Notes under the pieces: model-generated
The model's database searches: none
Seen by the model: only the letters and a program-made list of their open reading frames with translations
Told to the model about the DNA's origin: nothing
Position numbers and translations under genes: made by a program
Part shown: piece by piece, positions 6,616-59,680 of the stretch
Layout of the letters: every line of letters starts with the position of its first letter
Position numbering within the stretch: the stretch's first letter is position 1
Source of the DNA: Synergistaceae bacterium
GTDB lineage: Bacteria; Synergistota; Synergistia; Synergistales; Aminobacteriaceae
DNA length: 59,710 nt
Direction: 5' to 3'
Assembly (NCBI GenBank): GCA_031274425.1
Contig: JAISQE010000091.1
Coordinates: 1-59,710, forward strand

Positions 6616-6635
6616 AAAAAAACCTCCCAATCAAA

Positions 6636-6688
6636 ATGACAAAATATTTGACCAATCAACCTATTGGCGCGATGACAAATATTTTACC
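6636..6688. repeat. Two direct repeats upstream of gltS
   Basis: ATGACAAAATATTTGACC (6636-6653) and ATGACAAATATTTTACC (6672-6688) start 36 nt apart, directly upstream of the gltS ribosome binding site. The spacing and the AT-rich half-palindromic core suggest paired regulator sites. The sequence itself does not identify the regulator. Confidence 0.45.
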
Positions 6689-6768
6689 ACGCCGTGACGC
6701 CGAACGAGCTTTCAGGGGTTCTTACGCGTTTTTACGCGCCTTTTGCCCTCCGCGCGGGGTCTCCCCTA

Positions 6769-9747
6769 TCAAGCCGGCTCGCACAGCGCGATGTTCACCA
6801 GGTTGCTGTGTTGAGGGTTCCCCTTGGCGAGAGGCGTCGGGCGCGCGGTCGAGAGGGTGTTCACGCAGCCTCGGATGTCGACGCCCGATTCATCCGGCGC
6901 GTACCAGCCTCCCTGCGAGATGGCCAGAACGCCGCGAATAACCCGGTCCGTCACGTGAGCCCGTATTCGAACGCTCCCTCTGTCATTGAAAACATTCACC
7001 CAGTCGTCTTCGCGGATATTCCCGTCCTCGGCGTCTTCCAAGTTTATCCAGACGCGGTGCGGGGCAAGTTCTTCCATGCTTGGATTGTTGTCGTGCGTGG
7101 AGTGCGTCCTCCTCTTCGTGTGCCAGCCGATCAATTGGAACGGATATGTGGCGATCCGCGGGTCCCCCGGTCCCTCGAAGCTCGGGACGTACTTGGGGAT
7201 GGCCGGGATCTCCAGCGGATTGCCCCTGTCGTGCAGGCGAGGAGAGAAAATTTCGATCTTGCCGCTCGGCGTCGGAAAAGGATGGTTTTCGGGATCGCGG
7301 ATATTCTTCTCGAACGCTATAAAATGAGAACGATTCCTGTATCGATATATTCCATCCCCGCGAAACGCGTCGAAGTCGGGCATCCCAGGCTCGTTATCGA
7401 GAACGCCCTCGTAAACCTCCCTCAGAAGTTCCCGCAGTTCTTTGCCGCCACGGGTGAAGGCGCCGTGACAACCGAGATGACGCGCCACGTCGGAGAGCCA
7501 GTCGTACTCGAAGCGGCATTCGAACAGCGGCTCTATCGCCTTATTGCAGTACAAGATATAGTCGCCCTCGCGCCACGGTTTTCCGATGTTGTCTCCCTCG
7601 AACATCGACGTGCCTGGGAGCAGGATATCGGCGAATCTGGCGCTCGGCGTCATGAACAGGTCGGAGCACACGATGAACTCGCACATCGTCGTGTCCCTCA
7701 AAATCCCGGCGGTTCGCTTGACGTCGGAATGTTGGTTGATCAGCGTGTTGCCGGCCAAATTCCATATCATCTTGATATTGGCGTCCAGTTTTTGAACGCC
7801 GATCACCCCGTCGCGTCGCGCCGTCATCTCCGTTCCCCTGAAGACGGCGTCCGTCCATAAAAAAGATGGAATCTTGCCGCTGTACGGGTTGGGCGTCAAG
7901 GCCATACCGGGTTGCCTGTGCAGCTCGACCGCGCCGTTGCCGCAGGCCGAGCCGCCGGGAATACCGACGTTCCCCGTCAGGCAGGCCAGCATGGTGCCGC
8001 TCCGCACGATCTGCTCTCCGTTCCCGTTTCTCTGGGGCCCATAGCCCTGGAGAAGCGCCGCCGGCTTTGTTTGGGCGTAGCGTCGCGCCAGCCAGCGTAT
8101 CGTGTCCGGGTCCACACCCGTGATATCGGCCGCCCACTCCGCCGTTTTGGGCGTGCCGTCGTACTTGCCGAACGCGTAGTCCCGGTAGTTCTCGCAATCC
8201 TCCAGCCCCAGGAGCATGTGAGAGGCGTCGAATCCGAGGCAGAATCGATCCATGAATGCCTGGTCCTGCAGCCCCTCTTCGAGTATGGTGTAGGCCATGG
8301 CGTCCATTAGAGCGCCGTCCGTGGTGGGCCTGAGCCCTATCCAGCGGTCGGCCAGCGCGGAGGCGGTGTCGCTGAATCGAGGGTCGACGACCAGGATCTC
8401 GATCCCCGATTTTTTCGCCTCCCGGAGGTAAAACATCAAAGAGGAGCCGAACACGCTCTCCATGGGGTTATGCCCCCACAGGACGATCAGCTTGGAGTTC
8501 AGGAGGTCTTGGGAGCAATTTCCGGTCTCGTTGGTTCCGTAGGTATAGGGGGTCGTGAAGGAGGTGCACGCCGTGCTGTAAGTATTGTATTTGCCGAGAA
8601 AACCGCCGTTCAGAGCCAGAAGGTCCTGCGCGAACGCGTCGCCTCTGGCCACGGCGTTGACGCCGGAGGAGTAGTTGACGTACCTCGACTGAGGGCCGTA
8701 TCGCCTCCCGATGCGGTCTGCCTCGGCCGCGACGATTTCCGTCGCGGCTTCCCAGGAGACGCGTTCGAATCGGCCCTCGCCGCGCTCCCCCACTCGCCTC
8801 AGGGGGTAACGCAACCTGGCGCCGCTCAAAAATGTCCGGTGATAGGACGCCCCTCTGGCGCAGATCTTGATTCCCGGCGCTCTTACCGCGTCGGGATGAT
8901 TGGAGGGGCCGAGCCTCAGAACGCAGCCCTCCGCCGCGTCCGCCGTCAGTGGGCACCTGCCGCCGCAGTTGCCGGTCCCGCAGATCGGGATAGATTTTCG
9001 CCGCGTCTCTTTCTCGAGCTCGATCAGGGGGCGGAGGCATATTGGAGGGGCCGACAGGTCCTCGGAGTCCGACGCGACCCAGTGAGAGCGCGAGAGAAGC
9101 GCGGCCGACCGGCGCAGCAGGCGCGATGTCGTCGCGTAAAAAACCTCTCGCGCGCGCTCCTCCAGAGCCAAGCCAAACGCCTCCGCGAAGTGCCGCAGGT
9201 GCAGCTCGAAGAAAGAATGCGCGAGTTCGGCCCATCTCCCGCCGCCCCCTCCGCAGAGATGGGAGAAAAACGCGCATTCCGCTCCGATATGGTCGGGCGG
9301 CTGCCCGAGCGACTCGTCCACCCGCAGGCCCGCTTTGCGGTACATGGACGCCGCGTCGAAGGTGACGCGATTCATCAGCCGCCTGTCCTCCGCGCGGAAA
9401 CACGACTCCCAGAGATCGAGAGACGGGAACCTCAACCCCCAAAAAAGCGCTCGATATTCCTCCTCGAATACCCTCCAGTCACCCTCCGAGGCGCGATCCG
9501 CAAGTTCCGCGAGCGCATCGAGCCCCGGCAGGGCATGGCGGTACGGCGATCGGGCGCACCGCGCAAAACTCGCTCCCCACCTCTCCCGCGAGGGAGGATA
9601 CAGCAAAAGCTCCGAGAGAAGAGCGAAAAGAGGCTTGATTTCGGCGAGCCTGACGGAGCGCTCTTCATCTTTTTTCAAATCTTTCAAATCTTTCAAATCT
9701 CCCAATTCCAAATCTTCCAAATCCCCCAAAGACATTTCTATGGGCAT
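6769..9747 (-). CDS. TorD-type chaperone fused to a DMSO-reductase-family molybdoenzyme
   Basis: A 992-residue fusion. Residues 1-30 are a low-complexity Leu/Lys/Asp tail. Residues about 32-220 are an all-helical TorD/DmsD/NarJ-like chaperone domain (EEEYRALFWG, LGQPPDHIGAECAFFSHL). From about 250 comes a bis-MGD molybdenum oxidoreductase like DmsA, with Cys 256, 261, 265 and 296 for a 4Fe-4S cluster, GKYNTYS with the candidate serine Mo ligand, and VLWGHNPMES. No twin-arginine signal is present, so it should be cytoplasmic. No DmsB or DmsC partner is nearby. It starts at ATG 9747, right after the NifK-like stop, at the end of the operon. The substrate is unknown; an S-oxide such as DMSO is the natural guess from family and context. 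Confidence 0.88.
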   Translation of the reverse strand: MPIEMSLGDLEDLELGDLKDLKDLKKDEERSVRLAEIKPLFALLSELLLYPPSRERWGASFARCARSPYRHALPGLDALAELADRASEGDWRVFEEEYRALFWGLRFPSLDLWESCFRAEDRRLMNRVTFDAASMYRKAGLRVDESLGQPPDHIGAECAFFSHLCGGGGGRWAELAHSFFELHLRHFAEAFGLALEERAREVFYATTSRLLRRSAALLSRSHWVASDSEDLSAPPICLRPLIELEKETRRKSIPICGTGNCGGRCPLTADAAEGCVLRLGPSNHPDAVRAPGIKICARGASYHRTFLSGARLRYPLRRVGERGEGRFERVSWEAATEIVAAEADRIGRRYGPQSRYVNYSSGVNAVARGDAFAQDLLALNGGFLGKYNTYSTACTSFTTPYTYGTNETGNCSQDLLNSKLIVLWGHNPMESVFGSSLMFYLREAKKSGIEILVVDPRFSDTASALADRWIGLRPTTDGALMDAMAYTILEEGLQDQAFMDRFCLGFDASHMLLGLEDCENYRDYAFGKYDGTPKTAEWAADITGVDPDTIRWLARRYAQTKPAALLQGYGPQRNGNGEQIVRSGTMLACLTGNVGIPGGSACGNGAVELHRQPGMALTPNPYSGKIPSFLWTDAVFRGTEMTARRDGVIGVQKLDANIKMIWNLAGNTLINQHSDVKRTAGILRDTTMCEFIVCSDLFMTPSARFADILLPGTSMFEGDNIGKPWREGDYILYCNKAIEPLFECRFEYDWLSDVARHLGCHGAFTRGGKELRELLREVYEGVLDNEPGMPDFDAFRGDGIYRYRNRSHFIAFEKNIRDPENHPFPTPSGKIEIFSPRLHDRGNPLEIPAIPKYVPSFEGPGDPRIATYPFQLIGWHTKRRTHSTHDNNPSMEELAPHRVWINLEDAEDGNIREDDWVNVFNDRGSVRIRAHVTDRVIRGVLAISQGGWYAPDESGVDIRGCVNTLSTARPTPLAKGNPQHSNLVNIALCEPA
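9667..9735 (-). repeat. 9-nt tandem repeats in the 5' end of the molybdoenzyme gene
   Basis: Units close to TTTCAAATC on the plus strand recur several times and encode the L-x-D-L-K-D-L-K-D tail (residues about 5-26). The unit length is a multiple of three, so expansion or contraction would keep the frame. Confidence 0.7.
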
Positions 9748-9749
9748 TT

Positions 9750-11054
9750 CTATGTGTACCGGGTGAGGACCACCGAGTAGATGTCTTCCAGGAATTTGAG
9801 CGCGCCCTCGTAGCCCACGTACGAGCTGTTGATGACCAGGCGTTCGTTCAACGGCCATGAAATGGAGAGAAAGTGCGCCGCGGTTTCCACCGCCACCTTC
9901 TTTTCCCACGCGCTGCCGATGAGCAGCGGGTAGCCCATGTAGTCGGCCTTTTCGATCTCGTCGTGGACGGTATGCCCGTCCGTCTCGAATGAAATTTCGG
10001 CCTCGATGCCGTAGTTCATGTCTTTGAAATATTCCCGAATCGTCGATTGATGCCGCGCGGGCACGTCCTCCATAGCGTACTGCTTTTGCGGAAAGAGCCC
10101 CATGTCGTTGACGAGAAAACGGGTCAGCGCCAAGGCGTACTGCGCGTCGGAGACGACCGTGAAGCGTTTGGACATGATGCGGTTTTCAAGAAAAATGTCG
10201 GCGAAACGCTCAATGTAATAGTAATATTTGCTCTCTTTGTCGGCAATGAGTTTTTTCGTTTTTTCCACGTCCAATTTGGCAAATTCGCTGACCTCCATCA
10301 GAAATTTGCTGGTTTCGAAAGCGCCGACGGGCAGGTTCGGATAATGCAGGCAGGGGACCCCGAATTTTTGCTCCAGCAGTTGGGCGCTTTCGAGCCCCAG
10401 CCACGGGTTCACCACAAGGCTGAACTCCGCGCGCGGAATTCTCTCGATGTTCTTGAGCCCCTTGCCATAGCCGAATATGATGTTCGCCTCCAGCCCGATG
10501 TCGGCCAAAAGGTTCTCCAGCGCGTCCAGATTTCCGTACCAGAAAGGATCGTGGAGCGGCAAGCTCGCGAACACGTTGACGAGCCCTTTTTCGGTTTCGT
10601 ATTCCCTCCCGTCGTCCAGGAACTGCTCGAAAAGCGCCTGAAGTATCCACTCGTATCCAAGATAGTTGTTGCCCTTGAAACCAGCGGTGGAGGCGTGGAT
10701 GACCGGCTTCCCCTGGAGGCGGAAGGAGTTCACGACCTCCGCGGAGTCGTCGCCGATGATCTCCGACGAGCAGCCGGTGATCACCACGTACAGATCCGCG
10801 TCGATGACGCGCAGGGCGTTTTCTATCGTTTCCCTCAGGCGCTCCTCCCCGCCGAAGACGATCTCTTTTTCCGAAAGGTTGGTGCAGGGAAAGATGCGCG
10901 GAGCGAAATGCCCGGAGTTGCCGTTGCCGGTGGACAGCTTATCCGAGCAGCCCGGGCCCGCGTGAAGGATCGGCAATACCCGCTCGATGGACTGCACCGT
11001 CTGCATCGCGCCGAGAGCGCATTTATAGCGGACCTGATCCAGCGTCCTGCCCAT
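9750..11054 (-). CDS. NifK-like nitrogenase component 1 subunit, pair A
   Basis: A 434-residue protein of the oxidoreductase/nitrogenase component 1 superfamily, K type. Cysteines sit at the P-cluster positions: 12 (YKCAL), 36 (HAGPGC) and 95 (VITGCSSEIIGDD). The conserved EKEIVFGGEERL segment follows the second. It starts at ATG 11054 with AGGAGG 9 nt upstream, overlapping the end of the D-like gene and 2 nt past its stop. Translation coupling with the D-like partner is likely. It should form an alpha2beta2 component with the 11057-12520 product. Catalytic versus scaffold role is not decided by sequence alone. Confidence 0.85.
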   Translation of the reverse strand: MGRTLDQVRYKCALGAMQTVQSIERVLPILHAGPGCSDKLSTGNGNSGHFAPRIFPCTNLSEKEIVFGGEERLRETIENALRVIDADLYVVITGCSSEIIGDDSAEVVNSFRLQGKPVIHASTAGFKGNNYLGYEWILQALFEQFLDDGREYETEKGLVNVFASLPLHDPFWYGNLDALENLLADIGLEANIIFGYGKGLKNIERIPRAEFSLVVNPWLGLESAQLLEQKFGVPCLHYPNLPVGAFETSKFLMEVSEFAKLDVEKTKKLIADKESKYYYYIERFADIFLENRIMSKRFTVVSDAQYALALTRFLVNDMGLFPQKQYAMEDVPARHQSTIREYFKDMNYGIEAEISFETDGHTVHDEIEKADYMGYPLLIGSAWEKKVAVETAAHFLSISWPLNERLVINSSYVGYEGALKFLEDIYSVVLTRYT

Positions 11055-11056
11055 CT

Positions 11057-12520
11057 TTATTTGGCCTCCTGATATAAGGACGCGCTCTCCTGCCGGTACC
11101 ACCAATCGGTGTAAGGCAGCTTGATTCTGGACGATAGATTTTTTTCAAAGCTGCGGTTGGTGATCCTGTCGAGGATGGTGTACGCAAAGCTCAGAGTGCG
11201 TTTGTAGCCGAACGACATGTATTCGTCGGCCATGAAGATGGAGGGAACGCCCTGCTTGACGGCCCACACGGTGGTTCCCGGATGACGGGCCAGATAAAGG
11301 TCGGGCTTGTACTGGTTGAGGATATTCAGGATCTCGAAATTCTGCTGATCCGCGACGCTTATATTGAAATCCCTTGGCGAGTGCTCGGCCAGATACTGCA
11401 CGTGAGGAGGCGGGCTCCCGTCGTCGTACCGCGAATCGTAATGCCATGAGGCGATATAGGCGACCTCCATGCCCAGCTCCTGAATCACCCGCGCCACCTG
11501 AAACGCGAAGCTGGAGCCCATTCCGAGAACGACGCGCAGCCCCTTGAGCTTTGCCTTGACCTCTTCGAGTTTGGGCAGATATAGGGCGCGCTCGCGCTCG
11601 ATATAGGCCTCCGCCTCCGCCTCTTTGCCGATCACGCGTCCGATGTCCCGGAACCATGTCTCAAAACCGGCTACGCCAAGCGGATTGATGGTCTTGATGT
11701 AAGGGACGCCGTGCTGTTGTTCCAGCCCGTTGCCCAGGTAGGAGGCGAGCGTGCCGCAAATGGAGATGGTGGCAAGCGCTTCCGAGATATGCGAAAGCTC
11801 CTCCAGCGTCGTGTTGGAGTAGATCATGAAGACGTCCACGCCGATGGCGCGAAACATTTCCACGATATCGTCCCGGGCGCTCTCGTTGAAGTTCTTGAAG
11901 TTGATGAAGTTGCCTTTTTTTCGAGGCGGGGCCACGATTCTGGACAAAATCGCGTGATCCGCGGCGTCGAAACCCGTTGCCCAGACCTTGGATTTGAATC
12001 CTTCGCAGTGGATGGGCACGACCGGGATGGGAAGCTCCTCTCCGGTTTCGGCGATGACGGAGTCGACGTCCTCGCCGATGATGCCGGAGACGCAGGAAGT
12101 GGTGACGAAGATCGCCGCCGGTTTGTAACGGTTATAGGTCTCCAGGATCGTGTCGCGAAGAGTTCCCGCAGCGCCGAAGATGGTGTCCGATTCGTTCATG
12201 TCCGTTCCCAGGATCACGGTATTGTAGGACAGCCCCCGTTTGGAGGCGAGCTGCGTCTGGTTCGTGATCACGGAGGAGGCCCCGGCCGTGCAGCCGGACG
12301 GGGCATGGTTGATGATCGCGATATCCCGGATATGGGAAATATAACCGAGAACGCATCCCGCGTCGCAAGAACTGGATTGGGAGAAGCAACGCCCCCGATC
12401 CTTCAAAGACCCGCACCTCGACTGGCTGGCCAGGTCCTTGATCGTGCCGACGTAGCCCACAACGGAGCCCAGGCGTTCTTCTCGTTTCCCGAAAGTGGTG
12501 GAATTCAAATCGATAGTCAT
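11057..12520 (-). CDS. NifD-like nitrogenase component 1 subunit, pair A
   Basis: A 487-residue protein. P-cluster-type cysteines are at 52/56 (SSCDAGC), 77 (HAPSGC) and 143 (TTSCVSGIIGED). Cys255 (TISICGT) aligns with the cofactor-ligand Cys of NifD. The canonical cofactor histidine of NifD (in an MHSWDY context) is not present; the equivalent region reads IFMADEYMSFGY. A different His lies in LYLARHPGTT. It starts at ATG 12520 with AGGAG 8 nt upstream. The canonical NifD length is similar. It belongs to the nitrogenase-like groups outside Nif/Vnf/Anf; the methylthio-alkane reductase MarD is the nearest functional model, by context. Confidence 0.85.
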   Translation of the reverse strand: MTIDLNSTTFGKREERLGSVVGYVGTIKDLASQSRCGSLKDRGRCFSQSSSCDAGCVLGYISHIRDIAIINHAPSGCTAGASSVITNQTQLASKRGLSYNTVILGTDMNESDTIFGAAGTLRDTILETYNRYKPAAIFVTTSCVSGIIGEDVDSVIAETGEELPIPVVPIHCEGFKSKVWATGFDAADHAILSRIVAPPRKKGNFINFKNFNESARDDIVEMFRAIGVDVFMIYSNTTLEELSHISEALATISICGTLASYLGNGLEQQHGVPYIKTINPLGVAGFETWFRDIGRVIGKEAEAEAYIERERALYLPKLEEVKAKLKGLRVVLGMGSSFAFQVARVIQELGMEVAYIASWHYDSRYDDGSPPPHVQYLAEHSPRDFNISVADQQNFEILNILNQYKPDLYLARHPGTTVWAVKQGVPSIFMADEYMSFGYKRTLSFAYTILDRITNRSFEKNLSSRIKLPYTDWWYRQESASLYQEAK

Positions 12521-12559
12521 TTTTGTTCTCCTGTTCTGAATGATCCGCATCCAAATGAT

Positions 12560-13450
12560 CTATAAAAGCGCCGACGGCGAAATCGCGTCGGCGACGTCCT
12601 TTCCGGCGTCCGGGGAAAGGTTTCTGCCGGGCGCGTCGTCGTTCTGCAAAAACTCCCAGATCCTATGGGTGATCCATTTGTAGTCCGCCGACACCCGCAT
12701 ATCGGCCGCCGTGCGTGGGCGCGGCAGATCGATGTCGACGATTTTTTTTATCCTGCCGGGGCGAGCGGTCATCACAACGACCTGATCGGCGAGAAGAACC
12801 GCTTCCTCGATGCTGTGGGTGATAAAGACAATCGTCTTTCCGGTCTTCTCCCAAATGCTCAAGAGCTCGTCCTGCAGGGTTTCGCGGGTTTGCGCGTCCA
12901 CGGCCGCGAAGGGCTCGTCCATGAGCAGGACCGTCGGGTCGTAGGCCAAAGATCTGGCGATGGCGACCCTTTGGCGCATCCCGCCCGAAAGCTCGCTGGG
13001 ATATCGTTCTTCGAAGCCGTTCAACCCCACGAGATCGATATATTTTTTGCATATTTCCCGGCGTTGTTTTTTCGGCACGCGTTTGACCTCCAACCCGTAT
13101 CCCACGTTGTCGAGGACGGTTCTCCATGGAAACAAGGCGTAGCCCTGCATGATGAACCCTCTGTCCAAGGCGGGGCCGGTGACCAATTTCCCGTCGATCC
13201 GAATATCGCCGTGTTGGGGGCTTGACAGGCCCGCCAAGATGTCCAAAAGCGTGGATTTTCCGCAGCCGGAGGGGCCGACGATCGCCACGAAAGCGCCGTC
13301 GTCGACAGAAAGCGTGAAGTTTTCCAGCGCGACGAGCTCCTCTTTTTTCTTCCTCTCGGAGTTGCGAAGGTAGTAGACCTGTTTCAGATCGTGCAACACG
13401 ATCTTGGGTCGTTCTCGCGGCGCGCCGGCCGTCATCGTTTCCAGCGTCAT
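12560..13450 (-). CDS. NitT/TauT-type ABC transporter ATPase
   Basis: A 296-residue ATPase like SsuB/TauB/NrtD, with Walker [11 protein letters not shown]-loop [12 protein letters not shown], signature [12 protein letters not shown], Walker [12 protein letters not shown] and switch HSIEEA. It carries about 25 extra residues before the usual start. The matching permease (19321-20121) and binding proteins (20148-22148) lie upstream in the same operon. This ATPase is separated from them and placed between a cysteine synthase and the D-like gene of pair A, which ties import to the reductase genes. The TauT/SsuT family imports sulfonates and related small organosulfur or nitrogen compounds. Confidence 0.92.
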
Positions 13451-13453
13451 GCG

Positions 13454-14398
13454 TCAGTCCTCGTTTTCTCCGGTGTACAGCGTCGTGGACAGATACCGTT
13501 CGCCGGTGTCGGGAAAAATCGCAACAATGACTTTGCCCGAGTTTTCCGGGCGTTTCGCGATATCGGTAGCGGCGAACGCGGCCGCCCCGGAGGAAATCCC
13601 CACCAGCAATCCCTCGGTGCGCGCGAGCAAACGGGAGGCGTTGAAGGCCTCGGAGTTTTTTACGCGGAATATCTCATCGACGACCGCGCCATTGTAGGTG
13701 TCGGGGGCAAACCCCGCGCCGATGCCCTGTATTTTATGAGGCCCGGCCGCGCCTCCGGACAGGACGGGCGAGGCGTCCGGCTCTACGGCCACAATTCGGA
13801 CGGAACTGTTTTTCGCCTTCAAAGCCTCCCCGATCCCGCTGATGGTCCCGCCGGTTCCCACGCCTCCGACGACGACGTCCACTTTGCCGGCCGTGTCGTT
13901 CCATATCTCGACCGCCGTGGTTTCTCTATGAATTCTCGGATTGGCCGGGTTTTTGAATTGCTGCGGGATGTAGGATTTCGGAATTTTCTCCGCCAACTCT
14001 TCCGCTTTGCGTATCGCGCCCTTCATGCCCTCGGAACCGGGGGTCAATACAAGCTCCGCGCCGAGCGCGCTGAGCAGGCTTTGACGTTCGCGGCTCATAA
14101 ATTCCGGCATCGTGAGGATGACGCGGTATTTTTTCGCCGCCGCCACGATGGCGAGCGCAATTCCGGTGTTCCCGCTGGTGGGTTCGATGATGACGGAGTC
14201 TTTATCCAGGATGCCGTTGTCCTCGGCATCCCGGATCATCGCGAAACCAATGCGGTCCTTCACGCTGCCCCCCGGGTTGAAATACTCCAGCTTCGCCACG
14301 ATGGGGGCGGCCAAGCCCGCTTCCGAGCTGTAGTTTTCCAGCTGCAAAAGCGGCGTGTTGCCGATGAGGTCTGTCAATTTTCTCGCTATTCTAGGCAT
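13454..14398 (-). CDS. cysK: Cysteine synthase (O-acetylserine sulfhydrylase), first copy
   Basis: A 314-residue fold type II PLP enzyme: [10 protein letters not shown], the PLP lysine in [11 protein letters not shown], the substrate loop [20 protein letters not shown] for phosphate binding, and [11 protein letters not shown]. It makes cysteine from O-acetylserine and sulfide. The start lies 42 nt after the D-like gene of pair B and the stop lies 3 nt before the ATPase start, so it is embedded between the two nitrogenase-like pairs. It is clearly paralogous to the copy at 17305-18288, which suggests duplication of a unit with one synthase per D/K pair. Confidence 0.95.
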
Positions 14399-14440
14399 AT
14401 ACAGATGCCACCTCCCGATAGTCTATATCCAAAATGCTTT

Positions 14441-15946
14441 TTAAGCCTCTTTTATGTAATGAAAAGGATCTTGTTCGTACCATGACGCTTTATAGGGCAG
14501 CGGGCAGTGCCGCGCGATTTTTTTGTTGAACTGACCGTTCGCGAGGATTCTGCGAATGCGCCTGGCCACCTCGAACACGCCGGAGTAACCCATGTAGTTA
14601 TAGGTGGGCCCGAACAACGGCAGCAGGGGAAGCCCCTGTTTCGCGGAGAGGTTGCCGCCGCCGGTGTGGCCGATATAAAGGTCCGGCTTCAATCGGTTGA
14701 CCAGGTTGATCTGCTCGAAAGGTTGTTGCGTCGCGACGTTGAACAGCACGTCGTCCACGTCCTCCAGGCTTTCGAAAAGCGGCTCCGCGAATCGGTCGTA
14801 ATGGTGCCCTTTGAAGCCGATCACCTTCATCCCCAGGTCCTGCAGAATCTCCGCGGTGGCGACGACGCGGATTTCTCCGCCGCCAAGAAACACCCTCTTG
14901 TCTTTCAGATAAGGCCTGAATTGCGCGAGAGCCTCGTCGAGCTCCCTGCTTTCGGCGTCGATGAGCTGCTGTGCCCGATCCTGCAGATCAAAATGTTCCG
15001 CTATTTTAAGAAGCCACCGAGCCGTATTTTTGCGCCCTATCGGCATGGTGTCGATCACGTAGGGTATGCCGTAAAGAACTTTCAGGTGCTCGATGAAATA
15101 ATCGTCGTGCGTGCCGCAGATGCTGACGTTGAGAGCGGACAAGAGCGCGTAGCGGAAATCTTCCGCGCTGGAATAGCAAGGCAGCCACCGCGCGTTCAAG
15201 CCGATCGCGTTCAGAAGGCGCTCCAGTTCGGCTTCGTCCTGACGCGACATGGAACCCACGTTCAACAGATTTACCGTGCGGCTGTCCCGGTATTTTCGCC
15301 GCAGGTCGCTCAGGTCGTCCGATACCGTCCGCTGGTCCTCGCGGAGGTTCGGTTTTTTGACGAGGTGGCGCAGAACGCCATGATAGACGTCGTCGTAAGC
15401 GGTGGCCATCGCCTTGGTTTTGAATCCGGCGCAGTGGATGGGGATCAGGACGGCGGCGGTCTCCGCCTGCAATTCGGCGACCACCGCGTCCACGTCGTCG
15501 CCGATGAGGGAGGGCACGCAGCTTATCGGAACGCAAATCGTCTCCGGCCGGAACTCCTTGTCGGCGTAACGAATCGCTTCCTTGAGCTTGTTTTCGCCGC
15601 CGGCGATGACGTCCGCCTCGTTCAAGTTGGTGTTGAGCCAGATCAATCCCTCCGCGTTCGGGTCCCTCATGCGCTTGAAAGATTGGCTGGCGCCCACGGC
15701 GCCGATGGAGCACGAGCCGCAGCCTATGGGGCCGTGCATGATGATCACGGCATTTCGCAGAGAGTTGATGATGCCGAGGCTCAAGGTGAACTGGCAGCCC
15801 TGCGTCTGGGAAAAAGCGCGGCTCGCCCGGTTGATGCAACCCTCTCTCTGGGCGCATCGGAGTTCGCCGGCGGTTCCTCCGAACGCGACGCCGGTCCCTA
15901 GCCGTTCTTCCCTCACGGGAGGGCTTTTCAAGGTAATATAATTCAT
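14441..15946 (-). CDS. NifD-like nitrogenase component 1 subunit, pair B
   Basis: A 501-residue protein. P-cluster-type cysteines are at 51 (TQGCQF), 76 (HGPIGC) and 143 (ISCVPSLIGDD). Cys277 (VSICGTHDDYF) aligns with the NifD cofactor Cys. The canonical cofactor histidine is again missing (region LPLFGPTYNYMGYSG), while a His occurs in LYIGHTGGG, close to the corresponding His of pair A. It is only distantly similar to the pair A D-like protein, so the two pairs are ancient paralogues and not a recent duplication. It starts at ATG 15946 with GGGAGG upstream. In pair B the K-like gene precedes the D-like gene, the reverse of pair A. Confidence 0.85.
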   Translation of the reverse strand: MNYITLKSPPVREERLGTGVAFGGTAGELRCAQREGCINRASRAFSQTQGCQFTLSLGIINSLRNAVIIMHGPIGCGSCSIGAVGASQSFKRMRDPNAEGLIWLNTNLNEADVIAGGENKLKEAIRYADKEFRPETICVPISCVPSLIGDDVDAVVAELQAETAAVLIPIHCAGFKTKAMATAYDDVYHGVLRHLVKKPNLREDQRTVSDDLSDLRRKYRDSRTVNLLNVGSMSRQDEAELERLLNAIGLNARWLPCYSSAEDFRYALLSALNVSICGTHDDYFIEHLKVLYGIPYVIDTMPIGRKNTARWLLKIAEHFDLQDRAQQLIDAESRELDEALAQFRPYLKDKRVFLGGGEIRVVATAEILQDLGMKVIGFKGHHYDRFAEPLFESLEDVDDVLFNVATQQPFEQINLVNRLKPDLYIGHTGGGNLSAKQGLPLLPLFGPTYNYMGYSGVFEVARRIRRILANGQFNKKIARHCPLPYKASWYEQDPFHYIKEA

Positions 15947-15954
15947 TTTCGCTT

Positions 15955-17295
15955 CTACCTCCCCGCTATGAGCGTGCTCAACAAATCGCTGGCGAGACCG
16001 AGGCCGCCCTTGTAACCCGCGTAAGATTGATTCAGCACGATTCGGTTTGTCACCGGAAAAGAGACCGTCAGCAGAGGGACGCCCAGTTTTGCGGCCAGGT
16101 CGCGCTCGAACACGCTCCCGATCAAAAAGAGCGGGGAAAAACTGTCGTAATAGCGTTCATTTCCGCTGGGCTCCCAGGCATCTTGAAAATAACGCTGGAT
16201 GGACGACGTGTCCGTGTCGAATTTGACCAAGGGATAGGCGTCGCTTTCCCAACCCGTAAAACGTTTTTCTATCCGCCGGGTCTCCTCCCCGTCCAGCTCG
16301 TCCGTGACGACGGTCAAACGCGGCAGCCACCCGAGTTCGTCGGCGACGAAGCGGGAGATAGCCGGGGCGTAGTTGGCGTCCCCGACCACGACCGCGTATC
16401 GCTGCAGATCCACGTCGTTGTATATGTCCGCAATCCGTTCGATATAGTCGTAATAACGGGCTTCCTCGTCCGCGACGACCCGCTCGGCCGCCTCCCGAGA
16501 GAGGCGCAGCGCGTCCGCCGCCTCCAGGAGAAATTGCGACGTCTGTGCCGCCCCCACGGGCAACGGAAGGGAAATGTACGGAGTTCCGTGCGTTTTTTCG
16601 AACACGTCTGCCGCCTTGACCCCATAAACATCCGACAAAACGATGTTCAGTGACGCCTCCGAGGAATTTTTAAGGTTTTCCAAGGTCTCTCCCTCTCCGA
16701 AAAAGGTGTTGACGCGAAGCCCCAACCGCTCCAAAAGGCGCTTGATCTCCCCCAGGTTGCCTTTGTAGAAAGCGTCCTGCCCCGGCACGAGGCCGAGCAG
16801 GTTGACGACGTCCGCGCGTTTTTCGACGCCCTGCCGGACATAGTCGCTGAACAACCCGCCGAGGAGCATGTCGTAGCCGTCGTAGGAGTTCCCCTTGAAA
16901 CTGGGCGTGGAGACGGCGACGATTGGAACCTCTTCCCCCGCGAACTCGTCGAGGACCGCGCTAATGTCGTCGCCGATCATCTCCACCATGCAGCCGGTGA
17001 CCACGACGAACAAATCCCCGTCAATGAGTTCCAGGGTGGACCGGATTTGTTCGCTGAGGCGATCGGTTCCGCCGAATACGATCTCCCTCTCGACCACATT
17101 GGAGCTGCTCCACCCGGTCCCGCCGCAGTACCCGCCCCCCAGATAACCCGCGCCGGCGTTGCCCGTGGTGTAAAGGTTATAGCCGCAGCCCGCGCTGGCG
17201 TGAATGATGGGTATCGCCCTGGCCAAGGCCCGCAGGGTAAAGAGCGCGCCGCCCAAAGCGCAGCTGAATCGCGGCCTGTCTACAAATTTGTTCAT
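15955..17295 (-). CDS. NifK-like nitrogenase component 1 subunit, pair B
   Basis: A 446-residue protein. Cysteines are at the P-cluster positions 12 (FSCALGG), 37 (ASAGCGYN) and 102 (VTGCMVEMIGDD). A glycine-rich insertion (about 46-62) with an extra Cys57 precedes VEREIVFGGTDRL. It partners the D-like protein downstream, 8 nt away. It starts at ATG 17295 with GGGAGG 5 nt upstream. It could be a second catalytic component or the counterpart of the NifEN cofactor scaffold, which is otherwise missing from this set. Sequence inspection alone cannot separate these. Confidence 0.84.
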   Translation of the reverse strand: MNKFVDRPRFSCALGGALFTLRALARAIPIIHASAGCGYNLYTTGNAGAGYLGGGYCGGTGWSSSNVVEREIVFGGTDRLSEQIRSTLELIDGDLFVVVTGCMVEMIGDDISAVLDEFAGEEVPIVAVSTPSFKGNSYDGYDMLLGGLFSDYVRQGVEKRADVVNLLGLVPGQDAFYKGNLGEIKRLLERLGLRVNTFFGEGETLENLKNSSEASLNIVLSDVYGVKAADVFEKTHGTPYISLPLPVGAAQTSQFLLEAADALRLSREAAERVVADEEARYYDYIERIADIYNDVDLQRYAVVVGDANYAPAISRFVADELGWLPRLTVVTDELDGEETRRIEKRFTGWESDAYPLVKFDTDTSSIQRYFQDAWEPSGNERYYDSFSPLFLIGSVFERDLAAKLGVPLLTVSFPVTNRIVLNQSYAGYKGGLGLASDLLSTLIAGR

Positions 17296-17304
17296 TTTCC
17301 TCCC

Positions 17305-18288
17305 TCACCTCACGATTTCATCGAACAGCGGAGTGGACAAATAGCGCTCGCCCGTGTCCGGCAACAACACCACTACGTTTTTGTTCTCGTTTTCGGCTCG
17401 TTTCGCAAACTGAGTGGCCGCGAACGCGGCCGCCCCGGAGGAAATACCGACCAAAAGCCCTTCCTTCAACGCCAGAAGCTGCGCCGTCAAAAACGCTTCC
17501 TCGGAGCGGACTTTGTAAGTCTCGTCGACCGCGTGCCTATCGAACACCTTCGGAACGAAACCGGCTCCTATTCCCTGAATTTTATGGGCCCCCGCCGTCC
17601 CCCCCGACAGCACCGGCGAATCGTACGGCTCCACGGCCACGATTCTGACGCCGGGGTTCAGCTCTTTGAGCCGCAGCCCCACGCCCGTAACCGTGCCTCC
17701 GGTGCCGACGCCTCCCACGAACACGTCCACTTTCCCGCCGGTGTCCCTCCAGATTTCCTCGGCGGTCGTCGTCTTATGAATTTCGGGGTTGGCCGGATTG
17801 TCGAACTGCTGGGGAATATAGGAACCCGGAATAGACGCCGCAAGTTCTTCCGCTTTGCGAACGGCCCCTTTCATACCCAGCGCCCCCGGCGTGAGCACCA
17901 GCTCCGCGCCCAGAGCGGCCAACAGCTGGCGGCGTTCCACGCTCATGGTGTCCGGCATGGTCAGCACCAGCCGATACCCCTTCACGGCCGCCACAAAAGC
18001 GAGCCCTACGCCGGTGTTGCCGCTGGTAGGCTCGATCAGCACCGTGCCGGCGCGAATTTTTCCGCTTCTTTCCCCGCTCTCGATCATGGCGAGCGCAATC
18101 CGGTCTTTGACGCTGCCGAGGGGGTTGAAATACTCCAGCTTGGCGATGAGCCTGGCTCTTGCGCCGGTTTCTCTGCCATAAGCCCCCAGTTCCAGCAAAG
18201 GCGTGTCGCCGATCAACTCCGTCAACTTCGCCGCGATTTTTTCCGCGCGAATTTTTTCCACATCTTTTTCCACACACACTTTTCCCAT
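17305..18288 (-). CDS. cysK: Cysteine synthase (O-acetylserine sulfhydrylase), second copy
   Basis: A 327-residue CysK-family enzyme with the same motifs as the 13454-14398 copy: [10 protein letters not shown], the PLP lysine in [24 protein letters not shown] and GTGGTVTG. It has a charged N-terminal extension of about 20 residues. Start ATG 18288 has GGAGG 5 nt upstream; a GTG four codons earlier is less likely. It sits between the NifH-like gene (31 nt upstream) and the K-like gene of pair B (9 nt downstream), which supports use of sulfide released by, or required for, the reductase system. Confidence 0.95.
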
Positions 18289-18319
18289 GCGAACCTCCAC
18301 TCCGTCCCGCCCGGTAACG

Positions 18320-19294
<975 letters not shown>

Positions 19295-21161: not shown

Positions 21162-22148
21162 TTATTTCCCTGTAGGGTCAAACTCATTGGTAAAGACTTC
21201 TTCCGGCTCGATGTCGCCATGATTCCAATATCCCAGGCTCTCGCTGATCTCGAACCACAGCTCGATGTCCTCTTTTTTGATGCCCGGCTCTTCGCTGAAC
21301 CAAAATGTGTCCAATTCGACGTTGACCTTCGCCGGGTCGAGGCCGAGCGCCTCGCTGACCAACGGGATCGCTTCGTTAGGGTTCTCGTTGATCCATTTCC
21401 TCGTCTTGTACATGGCTCGCGAGAAAGCCTTGACCTCCTCCGGGTGCGCCGCCAGGAAGTCTTCGTGGAACGCTCGGATGGAGAGGCCCGCCCCAGGGCT
21501 GTTGTAGAGGTCCCAAGTGCTCGCGACCTGCTTGCTGCCCCCCGCGTTGACGACAAGGCTGGCAAAGGGAGGATGGGTGGTGGACAAATCTATCAAACCC
21601 TGTGACAGGGCCTGTTCCATCTGACCGGCTTTCGGAAGCACCACCCACTCCACTTCCCCCTCAATTCCCCTTTTATTCAGGTAAGCCTTCAGATAGCCAT
21701 CATTGCAAGCCGCATAGTTGCTGATTCCGACTTTTTTGCCCACGATATCGTCGAGCGTCTCGATGGGACCGTCCTCTCTGGCGTAATAGCGCACGTGGGG
21801 GAGTTTAGGATGATCCACCATGCCGGGCAGCACCGCTTTCACCTTGATGCCCGCAAGCCTTGCCTGGGTCAGCTTGTCCGTGTGACCGTCCGTCACGTCT
21901 ATCAAGCCTTGCTCCAACATCTGGTAAACACTGAGACCCTCCAGCAGCCCTATAAACTCGGCTTTGATCCCTTCTTCCTCATAAAAACCCTTCAAGTCGG
22001 CCGCTGTGAACTCGTTGAATCCCGTTTTAAGCGGCACTCGTATGACAAACAGGTCGGGCTTCGCGCCCTCGGCGGGTCGGAAACCGGCCCCCGCCAGCAG
22101 CATCGCGCTGGCTATGACAACCATTGCGCTCTTTTTTAGATTTTGCAC
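21162..22148 (-). CDS. NitT/TauT-type substrate-binding protein, copy 1
   Basis: A 328-residue secreted binding protein with a signal peptide (KKSAMVVIASAMLLAGAGF, cleavage near AEGA). It is a close paralogue of copy 2 over the whole length. I choose GTG 22148 because GAGGGG lies about 8 nt upstream; the GTG at 22157 overlaps that site. The ligand cannot be read from sequence. The family includes receptors for taurine, alkanesulfonates, nitrate and thiamine precursors, and the operon context favours a small organosulfur compound. Confidence 0.91.
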   Translation of the reverse strand: MQNLKKSAMVVIASAMLLAGAGFRPAEGAKPDLFVIRVPLKTGFNEFTAADLKGFYEEEGIKAEFIGLLEGLSVYQMLEQGLIDVTDGHTDKLTQARLAGIKVKAVLPGMVDHPKLPHVRYYAREDGPIETLDDIVGKKVGISNYAACNDGYLKAYLNKRGIEGEVEWVVLPKAGQMEQALSQGLIDLSTTHPPFASLVVNAGGSKQVASTWDLYNSPGAGLSIRAFHEDFLAAHPEEVKAFSRAMYKTRKWINENPNEAIPLVSEALGLDPAKVNVELDTFWFSEEPGIKKEDIELWFEISESLGYWNHGDIEPEEVFTNEFDPTGK

Positions 22149-22303
22149 GTTTCTCACCCCTCAATTTTGTTTTGGTTCCTTCGTGTCGAGCAAAAACCCA
22201 TTCAAACAAACCCACAAGTCAACCTTTAGCCTCCTTTCTTCATTACGGCGGCATTGGGCGTAAACTGTACCGAGTAACATCTTGCTCGGGTTATGCGAAT
22301 AGG

Positions 22304-24800: not shown

Positions 24801-25211
24801 TCAATACGCGCCGCAACCGCCGACGGAACAACCTCCGCAGCCGGCTCTACAGGCTGCCGCGGCCGGAGTCTCGCAGATTGCCAGGTTTTTGAGCAGGCCT
24901 CGACGCCTGACATAGTTCCGTAAAGTTTTTTGTACGTTTCCCGGCAGGGCATATCCCGTTATGTTGGACGAGGCCAACGCGTCCACGGCATGAGGGCCGA
25001 TCTGCGCGCACAAGACATACGACACGTCCGAAAGCAGTTTCACCGCCGCCTCCAATCGGTCGCCGACGGCTTGGGGCGGCAGGCAGCGGCGCTCTTCCCG
25101 CGCGACGCCGTCGTCGTCAATCTCATAAACGTAAAAATGTTCGGCGCGGCCGAAATGCTGATCGATATTGATTCCATCCGTGCTGGCTACAGCTATCTTC
25201 GTCATCGTCAT
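24801..25211 (-). CDS. NifX/NafY-like dinitrogenase cofactor-handling protein
   Basis: A 136-residue protein: KIAVASTDGINIDQHFGRAEHFYVYEI is the hallmark start of the NifX/NafY/NifB C-terminal family, which binds nitrogenase cofactor precursors. The C-terminus is cysteine-rich (CRAGCGGCSVGGC), suggesting Fe-S or metal binding. It starts at ATG 25211 or 25205; the latter has better spacing to AGAGG. The open frame continues upstream, but that part overlaps the NifB-like gene and is not credible. In many NifB proteins this domain is fused to the radical SAM part; here it is a separate gene directly downstream. Confidence 0.88.
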   Translation of the reverse strand: MTMTKIAVASTDGINIDQHFGRAEHFYVYEIDDDGVAREERRCLPPQAVGDRLEAAVKLLSDVSYVLCAQIGPHAVDALASSNITGYALPGNVQKTLRNYVRRRGLLKNLAICETPAAAACRAGCGGCSVGGCGAY

Positions 25212-25258
25212 CGCCTCTTTTGTCCATATCTCTTTTATCCATGCCTCTTTTATCCATG
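25212..25258 (-). repeat. Three tandem 15-nt repeats between NifB-like and NifX-like genes
   Basis: Read on the minus strand, ATGGATAAAAGAGGC is followed by ATGGATAAAAGAGAT and ATGGACAAAAGAGGC. The first unit contains the NifB-like stop codon and the last unit provides the ribosome binding site of the NifX-like gene. Each unit carries an AGAG(G) element and an ATG. Confidence 0.75.
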
Positions 25259-26167
25259 GGAGAACGTCTCCATCTGCCCGCCGTAGAGCTCCCGCGAAAA
25301 TTCGCTTATCCCCGGAATCCCGCAGGCGTCCGCCCGACAGTGTTTGCAGTGTTGAAACACCTCCAGGTGTCTGGCCCCCGCCTCCCTCGCCCTTTGGAGC
25401 ATGTCGCAGTCGGGCTCTTCGATGTGAGAGAGTTCGTGTTGCGGAATCAGGGGTATGATGTTGTAAATATGCGCCCCGGCCTCGCTGGCCGCTCTGGCGA
25501 TGTCCTCGATATGCTCGTCGTTGACGCCGGGGACCAGCACGGTATTCACCTTCACCGTCGCGCCCAGATCGCTCGCCCTGCGGATGCCCTCGAGCTGCCT
25601 CGCCGTCAAAATGCCGCCCATCTCCGGGCCGGTTATCCGCTTTCCCTCGAAGACGATGTAGGACACCACCTTTTCCAGGATGTACGGATCGACGGCGTTC
25701 ACGGTTACCGTGATGGTCTTCACCCCCACCTCGAGGAGCTCTTCCGCGCGGTCTGGAAGGAGCAGCCCATTGGTGCTGAGGCACTTTATCAGGTGCGGGT
25801 AGGCTTTATGGACGGCGCGAAATGCCTCTACGGCGGAGTTCGTCGCCAGCGTGTCCCCTGGCCCGGCTATTCCCACCACGGTGATGTCCGGGCAGAGCGA
25901 TAGGGCCTTTTTCACGGTCTCCACGGCTTGATTGGGGTGCAGAATGCCTGCCGTCACGCCCGGGCGCACCTCTTCTTTATTGAACGCGCGATTGCAAAAC
26001 CGGCACTGGATATTGCAGGCCGGAGATACCGGGAGGTGGAGCCTGCCGAATTTGTTGTGCGCTTCCGCTCCGAAGCAGGGGTGAAGCTGACTGACCTTTC
26101 GCGCGGACTCCTGCGCGGACTTTCTCGCCATTGCCATTACAGTTCCAATTTCTGTTATTCTGGCCAT
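25250..26167 (-). CDS. NifB-like radical SAM protein (cofactor precursor synthesis)
   Basis: A 305-residue radical SAM enzyme with the NifB hallmark HPCFGAEAHNKFGRLHLPVSPACNIQC split over residues 29-55: Cys31, and the SAM cluster CxxxCxxC at 51, 55 and 58 (CNIQCRFC). A C-terminal HCKHCRADACG segment matches NifB. NifB builds the 8Fe-9S-C core (NifB-co). The C-terminal NifX-like domain is absent here. I choose ATG 26167, with GAGGG 10 nt upstream; GTG 26176 is possible. It is the first enzyme gene of the nitrogenase-like set, preceded by a leader with a terminator. Confidence 0.93.
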   Translation of the reverse strand: MARITEIGTVMAMARKSAQESARKVSQLHPCFGAEAHNKFGRLHLPVSPACNIQCRFCNRAFNKEEVRPGVTAGILHPNQAVETVKKALSLCPDITVVGIAGPGDTLATNSAVEAFRAVHKAYPHLIKCLSTNGLLLPDRAEELLEVGVKTITVTVNAVDPYILEKVVSYIVFEGKRITGPEMGGILTARQLEGIRRASDLGATVKVNTVLVPGVNDEHIEDIARAASEAGAHIYNIIPLIPQHELSHIEEPDCDMLQRAREAGARHLEVFQHCKHCRADACGIPGISEFSRELYGGQMETFSHG

Positions 26168-26215
26168 CGTTTGCACGTTCCCTCGTCGTCATAAATTCGA
26201 GCGTAAATTTGAGAA

Positions 26216-26253
26216 TGAAAAAAAGTCAGCTTCCTGATGAAAGCTGACTTCAA
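26216..26253 (-). terminator. Intrinsic terminator (attenuator) before the NifB-like gene
   Basis: On the minus strand AAGTCAGCTT and AAGCTGACTT form a perfect 10-bp stem (26241-26250 with 26223-26232) around an 8-nt loop, followed by seven T. It lies downstream of the promoter at 26464-26491 and upstream of the NifB-like start (26167). Readthrough is therefore needed to express the operon from that promoter. Confidence 0.85.
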
Positions 26254-26389
26254 AACGGGATCTTCTTATTTCGCGGCGTCACATCATCATGGCAAACACA
26301 AATCTATATATGTACATTCGCGGCAAGCATCGCTCATCCGCTGCATCCGATTGCACATACACATGATTTGCGTTCCGAAGTCCCGTTTT
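26252..26389 (-). promoter_or_regulatory. Long-range complementary arms in the nitrogenase-like operon leader
   Basis: The start of the leader frame (AAAACGGGACTTC, minus strand 26389-26377) is complementary to GAAGATCCCGTTTT (26265-26252) just before the terminator: 9 bp, one bulge, then 4 bp. The GACTTC part could instead pair with GAAGTC of the terminator's own 5' arm. These pairings would depend on whether a ribosome occupies the leader frame. Confidence 0.5.
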
Positions 26390-26394
26390 CGCAT
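26287..26394 (-). CDS. 35-codon Met/Cys-rich leader peptide
   Basis: A small frame, ATG 26394 to TGA 26289-26287, with GAGAGGG about 10 nt upstream. Met occurs at 1, 11, 13, 17 and 20, and Cys at 12, 14, 24, 27 and 33. The core IMCMCNRMQRM has four Met and two Cys in eleven codons. It lies between the promoter and the attenuator-like terminator. The codon content fits ribosome-stalling control by methionine and cysteine supply, as in amino-acid biosynthetic leaders. An alternative is a functional small Cys-rich metal or Fe-S binding protein (C-x-C, C-x2-C). An in-frame ATG at 26403 has poorer spacing. Confidence 0.65.
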   Translation of the reverse strand: MRKRDFGTQIMCMCNRMQRMSDACRECTYIDLCLP

Positions 26395-26425
26395 AAAATT
26401 CATTCCCTCTCGATCTTTTAAAAGC

Positions 26426-26452
26426 AATAACTTATAAAATCAATAAGTTATT
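26426..26452. promoter_or_regulatory. Perfect 10-bp inverted repeat just downstream of the promoter
   Basis: AATAACTTAT (26426-26435) and ATAAGTTATT (26443-26452) are perfect complements with a 7-nt spacer. The repeat lies at about +5 to +31 of the predicted transcript, so it could be an operator or a 5' RNA hairpin. Confidence 0.6.
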
Positions 26453-26463
26453 AATAATTTGAG

Positions 26464-26491
26464 ATTATACCTCCTGATACTTATTTGTCAA
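26464..26491 (-). promoter_or_regulatory. Strong sigma70-type promoter of the nitrogenase-like operon
   Basis: On the minus strand a consensus TTGACA (26491-26486) and a consensus TATAAT (26469-26464) are separated by 16 nt. This is the only strong promoter I see driving the 26.4-6.8 kb gene set. Confidence 0.8.
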
Positions 26492-59319: not shown

Positions 59320-59373
59320 CTTTTGCCATCCCTAATTTAGCTACATCCGTTCCGCAAGGAGAAGAGTTTACGC

Positions 59374-59409
59374 AAAAAAAATTGGAAGCCCTTCTTGCGA
59401 AGCTTCCAA
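59374..59409 (-). terminator. Intrinsic terminator (attenuator) upstream of metN
   Basis: On the minus strand TTGGAAG + CTTC, loop GCAA, GAAG, a GG bulge, then CTTCCAA, followed by eight T (59381-59374). It lies 55 nt before metN and within its leader, so it controls readthrough into the operon. Confidence 0.88.
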
Positions 59410-59504
59410 GATATCCTGCCTATACGACGTGAACTTACGAGAAAAACCGCAACTCAAAATCTCTTTCTCGGCGCGCGACATCGTACGACGCAGGCATCTT
59501 GGAA
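59404..59504 (-). promoter_or_regulatory. Antiterminator arms of the metN leader
   Basis: TTCCAAGAT-G-CCTGC (minus strand 59504-59490) is complementary to GCAGG-AT-ATCTTGGAA (59419-59404): 5 + 9 bp. The second arm shares TTGGAA with the 5' arm of the terminator, so the two folds exclude each other. No SAM-I, T-box or other known riboswitch core is visible. Confidence 0.7.
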
Positions 59505-59597
59505 CCGCGTCATCCACATTCGCATATCGAGACAGACACTATCGAACGGCTTCACATCCAGCACTTTCATATTCAGCGCTTTCGCATCCACCTCCAT
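59454..59597 (-). CDS. 47-codon leader peptide with clustered Met codons
   Basis: A frame from ATG 59597 to TGA 59456-59454. GTG 59591 is a better-spaced start for GGGAGG and keeps the frame. Met codons are at 1, 10, 25, 27 and 29; the cluster DMRMWMTRF ends 7 nt before the first antiterminator arm. Position and composition fit a methionine-sensing leader peptide for the methionine transporter. Residues 4-16 derive from 15-nt tandem repeats (DAKAL, NMKVL, DVKP). It could still be a chance frame. Confidence 0.55.
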   Translation of the reverse strand: MEVDAKALNMKVLDVKPFDSVCLDMRMWMTRFQDACVVRCRAPRKRF

Positions 59598-59652
59598 CAC
59601 CTCCCGTCAAACAAATTAATGTAGAGATATTAAGTAAGAATTAACACGAGGT

Positions 59653-59680
59653 AATATAACATGATTTCAGAGAATGTCAA
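59653..59680 (-). promoter_or_regulatory. Promoter of the met operon
   Basis: Minus-strand TTGACA (59680-59675), 16 nt, TATATT (59658-59653). It lies upstream of the Met-rich leader and the terminator. Nothing further is visible between it and the window end. Confidence 0.65.

Follow-up and report, generated by a model that had tools for sequence, protein, structure and literature searches.

A Met/Cys-codon leader peptide as a very likely transcription attenuator before a nitrogenase-like operon of Synergistaceae

The nitrogenase-like operon of a Synergistaceae bacterium is preceded by a short leader which is very likely (probability about 0.87) a ribosome-mediated transcription attenuator sensing charged tRNA-Met and tRNA-Cys, a reading based on computation without RNA or expression data. 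The leader lies in a stretch of 59,710 nucleotides, i.e., the window, from a genome of 3.29 Mb, the closest named relatives of which (Synergistaceae MAGs) we take to be from termite guts, judged by their isolate series. Nitrogenase-like enzymes of Group IV are widespread among anaerobes of gut and soil, and what most of them do is unknown. By reading Met and Cys codons, a leader would tell what the cell wants from such an operon, with no need to guess the substrate of its enzymes. The mechanism is classical; what is new is the combination of sensor and target.

The attenuator region is on the - strand, flanked by a SEL1-repeat-like gene and the NifB-like gene, and its elements are, in order of transcription:

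26464..26491, - strand: sigma-70-type promoter TTGACA-16-TATAAT, 12/12 consensus match (-35 TTGACA 26491-26486; -10 TATAAT 26469-26464; spacer 16 nt)
26426..26452, - strand: AT-rich palindrome AATAACTTAT-N7-ATAAGTTATT, just past the -10, probable operator
26405..26410, - strand: Shine-Dalgarno sequence AGAGGG, 10 nt upstream of the ATG, read from the sequence
26287..26394, - strand: leader ORF MRKRDFGTQIMCMCNRMQRMSDACRECTYIDLCLP, 35 codons, ATG at 26394, stop codon TGA 26289-26287
26353..26364, - strand: core of segment 1, control codons Met-Cys-Met-Cys, able to pair with segment 2
26278..26294, - strand: segment 2, stop codon plus UGAUGAUGUGAC, predicted 5' strand of the antiterminator
26235..26250, - strand: segment 3, 5' arm of the terminator plus the invariant bases UCAUC
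26223..26232, - strand: segment 4, 3' arm of the terminator
26218..26224, - strand: T7 tract of the intrinsic terminator

An earlier note, made without database searches, had listed a promoter, palindrome, ribosome binding site, 35-codon frame, complementary long-range arms and a 10-bp terminator with T7 before a NifB-like gene. Computation shows all of these on the - strand, and the first gene 3' of the leader is indeed a NifB-like radical SAM gene. The promoter is the sole promoter match within 1.7 kb, and its placement relative to the leader is identical at three related loci (L002, L085, L086). The terminator stem is a perfect 10 bp (AAGTCAGCTT 26250-26241 / AAGCTGACTT 26232-26223, - strand), and since it falls between a promoter and that promoter's own first gene, it is a premature terminator. 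The long-range arms are AAAACGGGA (26389-26381) and TCCCGTTTT (26260-26252), both on the - strand. RNA of the leader region folds at -87.8 kcal/mol (z = -6.3), a stability reached by none of 200 shuffles.

With 5 Met and 5 Cys among its 35 codons, the ORF attains a density of 6 Met/Cys codons in 12, which no other of the 486 small ORFs in the window reaches. One rival, a chance small ORF before an ordinary terminator with control solely by a protein at the palindrome, could appeal to how widespread the palindrome is, even after a promoter without a leader (L088). It is all but excluded by 0/5000 dinucleotide shuffles of the region reaching the Met/Cys density, by the position of the terminator between promoter and gene, and by two results given below, the top enrichment of the CM residue pair in two sets of loci and the covariation of the terminator.

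The palindrome motif is also found 3' of the leader promoters of L010 and L085 and of the metN leader promoters, as well as after the promoter of L088, a locus with neither leader nor terminator. Because it follows a promoter lacking a leader, the palindrome is probably an operator, not a part of the attenuator. It is likely the operator of an unidentified (sulfur) regulator, an inference from sequence alone. At L007 and L012 the promoter and palindrome are as in the window, but no clear leader was found. Across phyla, many promoters of Mar-like and met genes have a palindrome of the type AAACATAT..ATATGTTT or AATAACTTAT..ATAAGTTATT after the -10, e.g., window 26426-26452, L088, L010, L049, L044, L041 and the metN loci L115-L117. 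A further observation concerns L178, where a gene for a LysR-type regulator, located upstream of a nitrogenase-like cluster, is preceded at about 4667-5000 by a Met/Cys leader, CSCKFDMCMCCRM; this regulator is a possible candidate for binding the palindrome.

Conservation of the leader within Synergistaceae is shown by an alignment of seven leaders, i.e., the window leader, a paralogue in the same genome (C133) and those of G071, G074, G075, G077 and G078, which precede NifB-, NifD- or NifK-like genes. Their core codons read MCMC, MCVC, MSMC or RCMC, and Cys is encoded by both TGT and TGC, therefore it is the amino acid and not the base that is conserved. Met/Cys positions remain Met/Cys in 0.66 of comparisons, compared with an identity of 0.25 at other residues. 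The prediction set beforehand, that Met/Cys codons would be conserved while other codons drift, thus held in this alignment, and an unconserved frame or terminator, which the earlier note had said would refute the idea, was not what we saw, as both are conserved in Synergistaceae. BLAST with the leader DNA returned close relatives only. A covariance model built from the seven leaders matched further leaders on contigs outside the model set, one before metY of G072 (E 4e-26) and others before NifX, SsuA-like and SsuACB genes. A leader before NifDK at L226 was kept only as weak.

Outside Synergistaceae, the retention of Met and Cys was far more striking, being carried by unrelated leaders in Bacillota and one Fusobacteriaceae MAG. 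Related loci were scanned for small ORFs directly before a terminator. The first set of loci gave leaders without other similarity, namely MCMMCCMRM (L021), MCMMCQMRM (L020), CCCCSICCCM (L033), CANMCCCCM (L051) and RCCC (L010). A second set (L152-L210), the genomes of which partly overlap the first, gave six more, all upstream of a nitrogenase-like cluster: MMMCCCMMMM (L166), SCCCKTVCMCMNM (L194), CCYCKAVCMCM (L198), the CSCKFDMCMCCRM of L178, NMNMCQCCCM (L203) and LMCCHLCM (L159). The Fusobacteriaceae MAG carries VCCMCCSMCCC before a NifH-like gene. CM was the most enriched of 190 residue pairs in each set, with 8 occurrences where 0.06 were expected and 5 where 0.04 were expected, and in nearly all leaders the stop codon lies 22-51 nt ahead of the terminator. 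Of the 152 nitrogenase-like loci scanned, which are redundant, often truncated and include many MAG fragments, the majority had no such leader that we could detect. One candidate, L167 (..AMAMCMG..), has no recognised gene downstream and was rejected as chance.

These leaders bear on a second rival, in which the product of the ORF is a functional small protein, rich in Cys and binding metal or Fe-S, and the hairpin is merely a terminator. In its favour, some residues other than Met and Cys are shared among the Synergistaceae leaders (DAC..C, Q.M, LCLP). However, these residues overlap paired RNA segments, a terminator separates ORF from operon in nearly every case, and the Bacillota leaders at the same operon type have only Met/Cys richness in common, with differing length and Cys spacing. 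Conservation of the peptide beyond Met/Cys, which would have refuted the starting idea had it shown a functional Cys-rich protein, is limited to some residues within Synergistaceae and does not extend to the Bacillota leaders, and we hold this rival to be very unlikely.

Also very unlikely is a reading of the RNA as a T-box or a metabolite riboswitch, of SAM type or new, with an incidental ORF. The strong folding z-score and the presence of SAM riboswitches around one related cluster speak for it; against it, no Rfam family, SAM riboswitch and T-box included, matched the window at gathering score, unrelated sequences from several phyla repeatedly carry Met/Cys codons, and synonymous Cys codons are exchanged. 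Rfam scans of 80 related loci returned only SAM riboswitches (L040), one T-box (L021), one Flavo-1 sRNA and tRNAs. At L040, from Sporanaerobium, the SAM riboswitches (1898-2006 and 11069-11167) flank a related NifB-like locus on both sides, an RNA device of another kind serving the same amino acids.

The leader type is also shown before ordinary genes for sulfur amino acids. A divergent metY-metA operon at L021 is preceded by MDCMMCVMCIMCCGM, metY at L013 by CICRTCICRIC and cysK at L185 by MCKCCNMCCK. The window itself holds a second example:

59382..59597, - strand: second Met/Cys leader with terminator, before metNIQ; ORF 59597-59454 (..CLDMRMWMTRFQDACVVRC..), terminator 59409-59382

This leader (region about 59373-59680, - strand) reads ..CLDMRMWM..DACVVRC.. 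and has orthologues before metN in G071, G074, G075 and G077, while an unrelated Met-rich sequence, MMMCMGMMMRMCTM, precedes metN in G015 (L132). Since the same leader type stands before metY, metNIQ and cysK, a role in sulfur amino acid metabolism is supported independently of the nitrogenase-like genes. The earlier note had proposed that the nitrogenase-like set serves sulfur amino acid supply; these leaders support that proposal, and the supply of sulfur for both amino acids remains an inference.

The core is Cys-only in some relatives, which leaves Cys as a possible main signal. Taken further, this gives a rival in which only cysteine is sensed and the Met codons serve RNA pairing or are a minor input. 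The Cys-only or nearly Cys-only cores of L033, L013 and L010 favour it; Met-dominated cores at L166 and before metN (L132), together with the retention of Met codons in the Synergistaceae core, count against it, and we regard it as unlikely. The mixed Met/Cys cores favour, if only tentatively, both amino acids as the signal, and any relative weighting of Met against Cys is inferred.

Turning to RNA structure, the seven leaders fit an attenuator of four segments, and the terminator helix (3:4) is the best supported in them, with 98.7% of cells paired and 10 two-sided changes, a score that none of 500 shuffles reached; this covariation is shown by computation. The terminator stem drifts, whereas UGAUGA at the stop codon and UCAUC in the arm and loop of the terminator are invariant in 7/7 leaders. 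The antiterminator is likely the stop-codon region UGAUGA..UGAC paired with the 5' arm of the terminator, a prediction for which covariation is weak. This helix (2:3) is short; 94.3% of its cells are paired in the seven leaders, against at most 54.3% when slid, two-sided changes occur at two pairs, and 47 of 500 shuffles reach its score. A further helix, 1:2, was found unprompted by RNAalifold (85.7% paired), with no covariation beyond chance in the seven leaders, and is possible but unproven. The arms AAAACGGGA/TCCCGTTTT, initially considered for this role, exist in the sequence but were dropped as antiterminator, being absent from relatives in the seven-leader alignment, and the stop-codon region takes their place. 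The arms probably compete with the antiterminator.

Folding with and without a ribosome, as the earlier note had suggested, gave a two-part answer. Masking a single ribosome at the stop codon removed the antiterminator in 7/7 leaders, while with the ribosome stalled it formed clearly in only 4/7, and masking at the Met/Cys core did not free it in the window or G071. In the window, the antiterminator does not form with one ribosome because a long-range pairing competes. When the translated stretch behind the ribosome was masked as well (the trailing-ribosome model), the window antiterminator was freed, with a probability of at least 0.9 at nearly all positions as far as codon 31, dropping to zero over the last codons and at the stop. 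Under this model it was lost at the stop codon in 7/7, and in G074 and G078 its probability was only low to moderate at many positions. Availability of the antiterminator by ribosome position is thus shown computationally, and the predicted behaviour is that of a classical attenuator. At equilibrium, full-length RNA always prefers the terminator, therefore a kinetic switch is needed. Evidence for a mutually exclusive antiterminator is confined to the Synergistaceae leaders, where complementarity is conserved, covariation is weak and a competing structure appears with a single ribosome.

In the proposed mechanism, ample Met and Cys would let the leading ribosome reach the stop UGA and cover segment 2, so that terminator 3:4 would form and transcription would end before the NifB-like gene. 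When Met or Cys is short, the ribosome would stall at the Met/Cys codons and leave segment 2 (UGAUGA..UGAC) free; once made, the 5' arm of the terminator would pair with it, the terminator would fail and the Mar-like operon would be transcribed. The palindrome at the promoter would probably add protein-based control. Stalling and termination in the cell are inferred. The original starvation model, in which shortage of Met and Cys stalls the ribosome and opens the operon, is supported computationally, the regulation itself being inferred without expression data.

Classical leader-peptide attenuators control the trp, his, thr and ilvGMEDA operons of enterobacteria. Like these, the window leader has a promoter, a Shine-Dalgarno sequence, a short ORF with control codons and a stop codon within segment 2, mutually exclusive 2:3 and 3:4 helices (the antiterminator here being predicted) and a premature intrinsic terminator, and the thr and ilv leaders are a precedent for sensing more than one amino acid. 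It differs from them in its Met plus Cys control codons, in its nitrogenase-like (Mar-like) target and in its occurrence in Synergistota, Bacillota and one Fusobacteriaceae MAG. Actinobacteria have known Cys leader peptides, at the cys operon of Mycobacterium and cbs of Bifidobacterium (PMC1262725), which are similar in that a short ORF ahead of genes for sulfur amino acids contains runs of Cys codons; however, no terminator hairpin was found there and Rho was proposed (PMC1262725), whereas the window leader has a covarying intrinsic terminator and Met codons. Ribosome-mediated attenuation has also been proposed for uORFC-8-2, with tandem Cys codons and an intrinsic terminator, before cysS of Rhodobacterales (PMC8632094), which shares that proposed mechanism and terminator type with the window leader but differs in gene, phylum, RNA and codon set.

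In Bacillota, RNA control of genes of this kind is usually exerted by SAM riboswitches and T-boxes. Classical attenuation has been stated to be absent for aminoacyl-tRNA synthetase genes of Firmicutes (PMC1262725). The leaders described here would extend classical attenuation to new lineages, Bacillota above all. In the open-access literature that we searched, which leaves subscription literature uncovered, no paper linked nitrogenase with leader-peptide attenuation and none dealt with Met-codon leader peptides, consistent with the initial remark that no such leader was known on a nitrogenase-like operon.

The operon runs, in order, through NifB-like, NifX-like, DUF4418, FtsX-type permease, ABC ATPase, two SsuA-like, SsuC-like permease, NifH-like, CysK, NifK-/NifD-like, CysK, SsuB-like, a second NifD/NifK-like pair and a DMSO-reductase-type A subunit. 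Its main features are:

25250..26176, - strand: NifB-like radical SAM protein (MarB-like), first gene under the putative control; PF04055; TIGR01290 best, below cut-off
24801..25208, - strand: NifX-like protein (Nitro_FeMo-Co); PF02579
20148..22157, - strand: two SsuA-like substrate-binding proteins; 21162-22157 of the TIGR01728 family, below cut-off
18320..19171, - strand: NifH-like reductase; PF00142; TIGR01287 above cut-off
14441..17295 (15955-17295, 14441-15946), - strand: first MarK/MarD-like pair; best PDB matches MarDK 9FMG/9D9U
13454..14398 and 17305-18300, - strand: cysteine synthases (CysK); TIGR01139 above cut-off, both
9750..12550 (11057-12550, 9750-11105), - strand: second MarD/MarK-like pair; MarD E 9e-96, MarK E 3e-111
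6772..9909, - strand: DMSO-reductase-type A subunit with N-terminal TorD/NarJ-like domain; TIGR02166 above cut-off; PF02613 N-terminal

The second SsuA-like protein was assigned through its similarity to the first. Methylthio-alkane reductase (9FMG/9D9U) is the best solved relative of both NifD-like and both NifK-like proteins. Using the ligand residues given in the paper on 9FMG (PMC12552129), the P-cluster Cys66, 91 and 158, the cofactor Cys270 and the Mar-specific His429 of MarD align in both MarD-like proteins; equivalents of the MarK P-cluster Cys32, 56 and 121 align in the second MarK-like protein, and the first is assigned by best hit only. The MarD ligand alignment and the best solved relatives therefore support a Mar-like (methylthio-alkane reductase-like) operon, which we consider likely, with substrate and reductive C-S cleavage inferred without enzymology. 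It resembles MarBHDK of Rhodospirillum rubrum (North et al. 2020; PDB 9FMG, PMC12552129) in its NifB-, NifH-, MarD- and MarK-like proteins, and differs in having two DK pairs, two cysteine synthases, SsuA-like transporters, a DMSO-reductase-type subunit and a leader attenuator. Neither a riboswitch nor the regulator SalR is mentioned in the full text of the 9FMG paper (PMC12552129). The presence of two MarDK-like pairs alongside two cysteine synthases in a single operon (9750-18300, - strand) suggests two substrates or a cysteine-directed product.

A bolder reading, towards which we lean only slightly, is that anaerobes of at least three phyla have put Mar-like nitrogenases together with metY, metNIQ and cysK under combined Met/Cys-codon attenuation, these being the first Met-codon attenuators known to us. 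If true, Mar-like nitrogenase relatives would be assimilatory sulfur enzymes, fed in the window operon by DMSO reduction.

Two minor observations complete the picture of this genome. The A subunit of DMSO-reductase type, fused to the TorD/NarJ-like domain, closes the Mar-like operon past the second pair, and DMSO reduction would give DMS, on which Mar is known to act. The genome also has another nitrogenase-like cluster (L101, G000:C133, about 5400-12900), with its own NifH-like gene (51% identical) and the paralogous leader.
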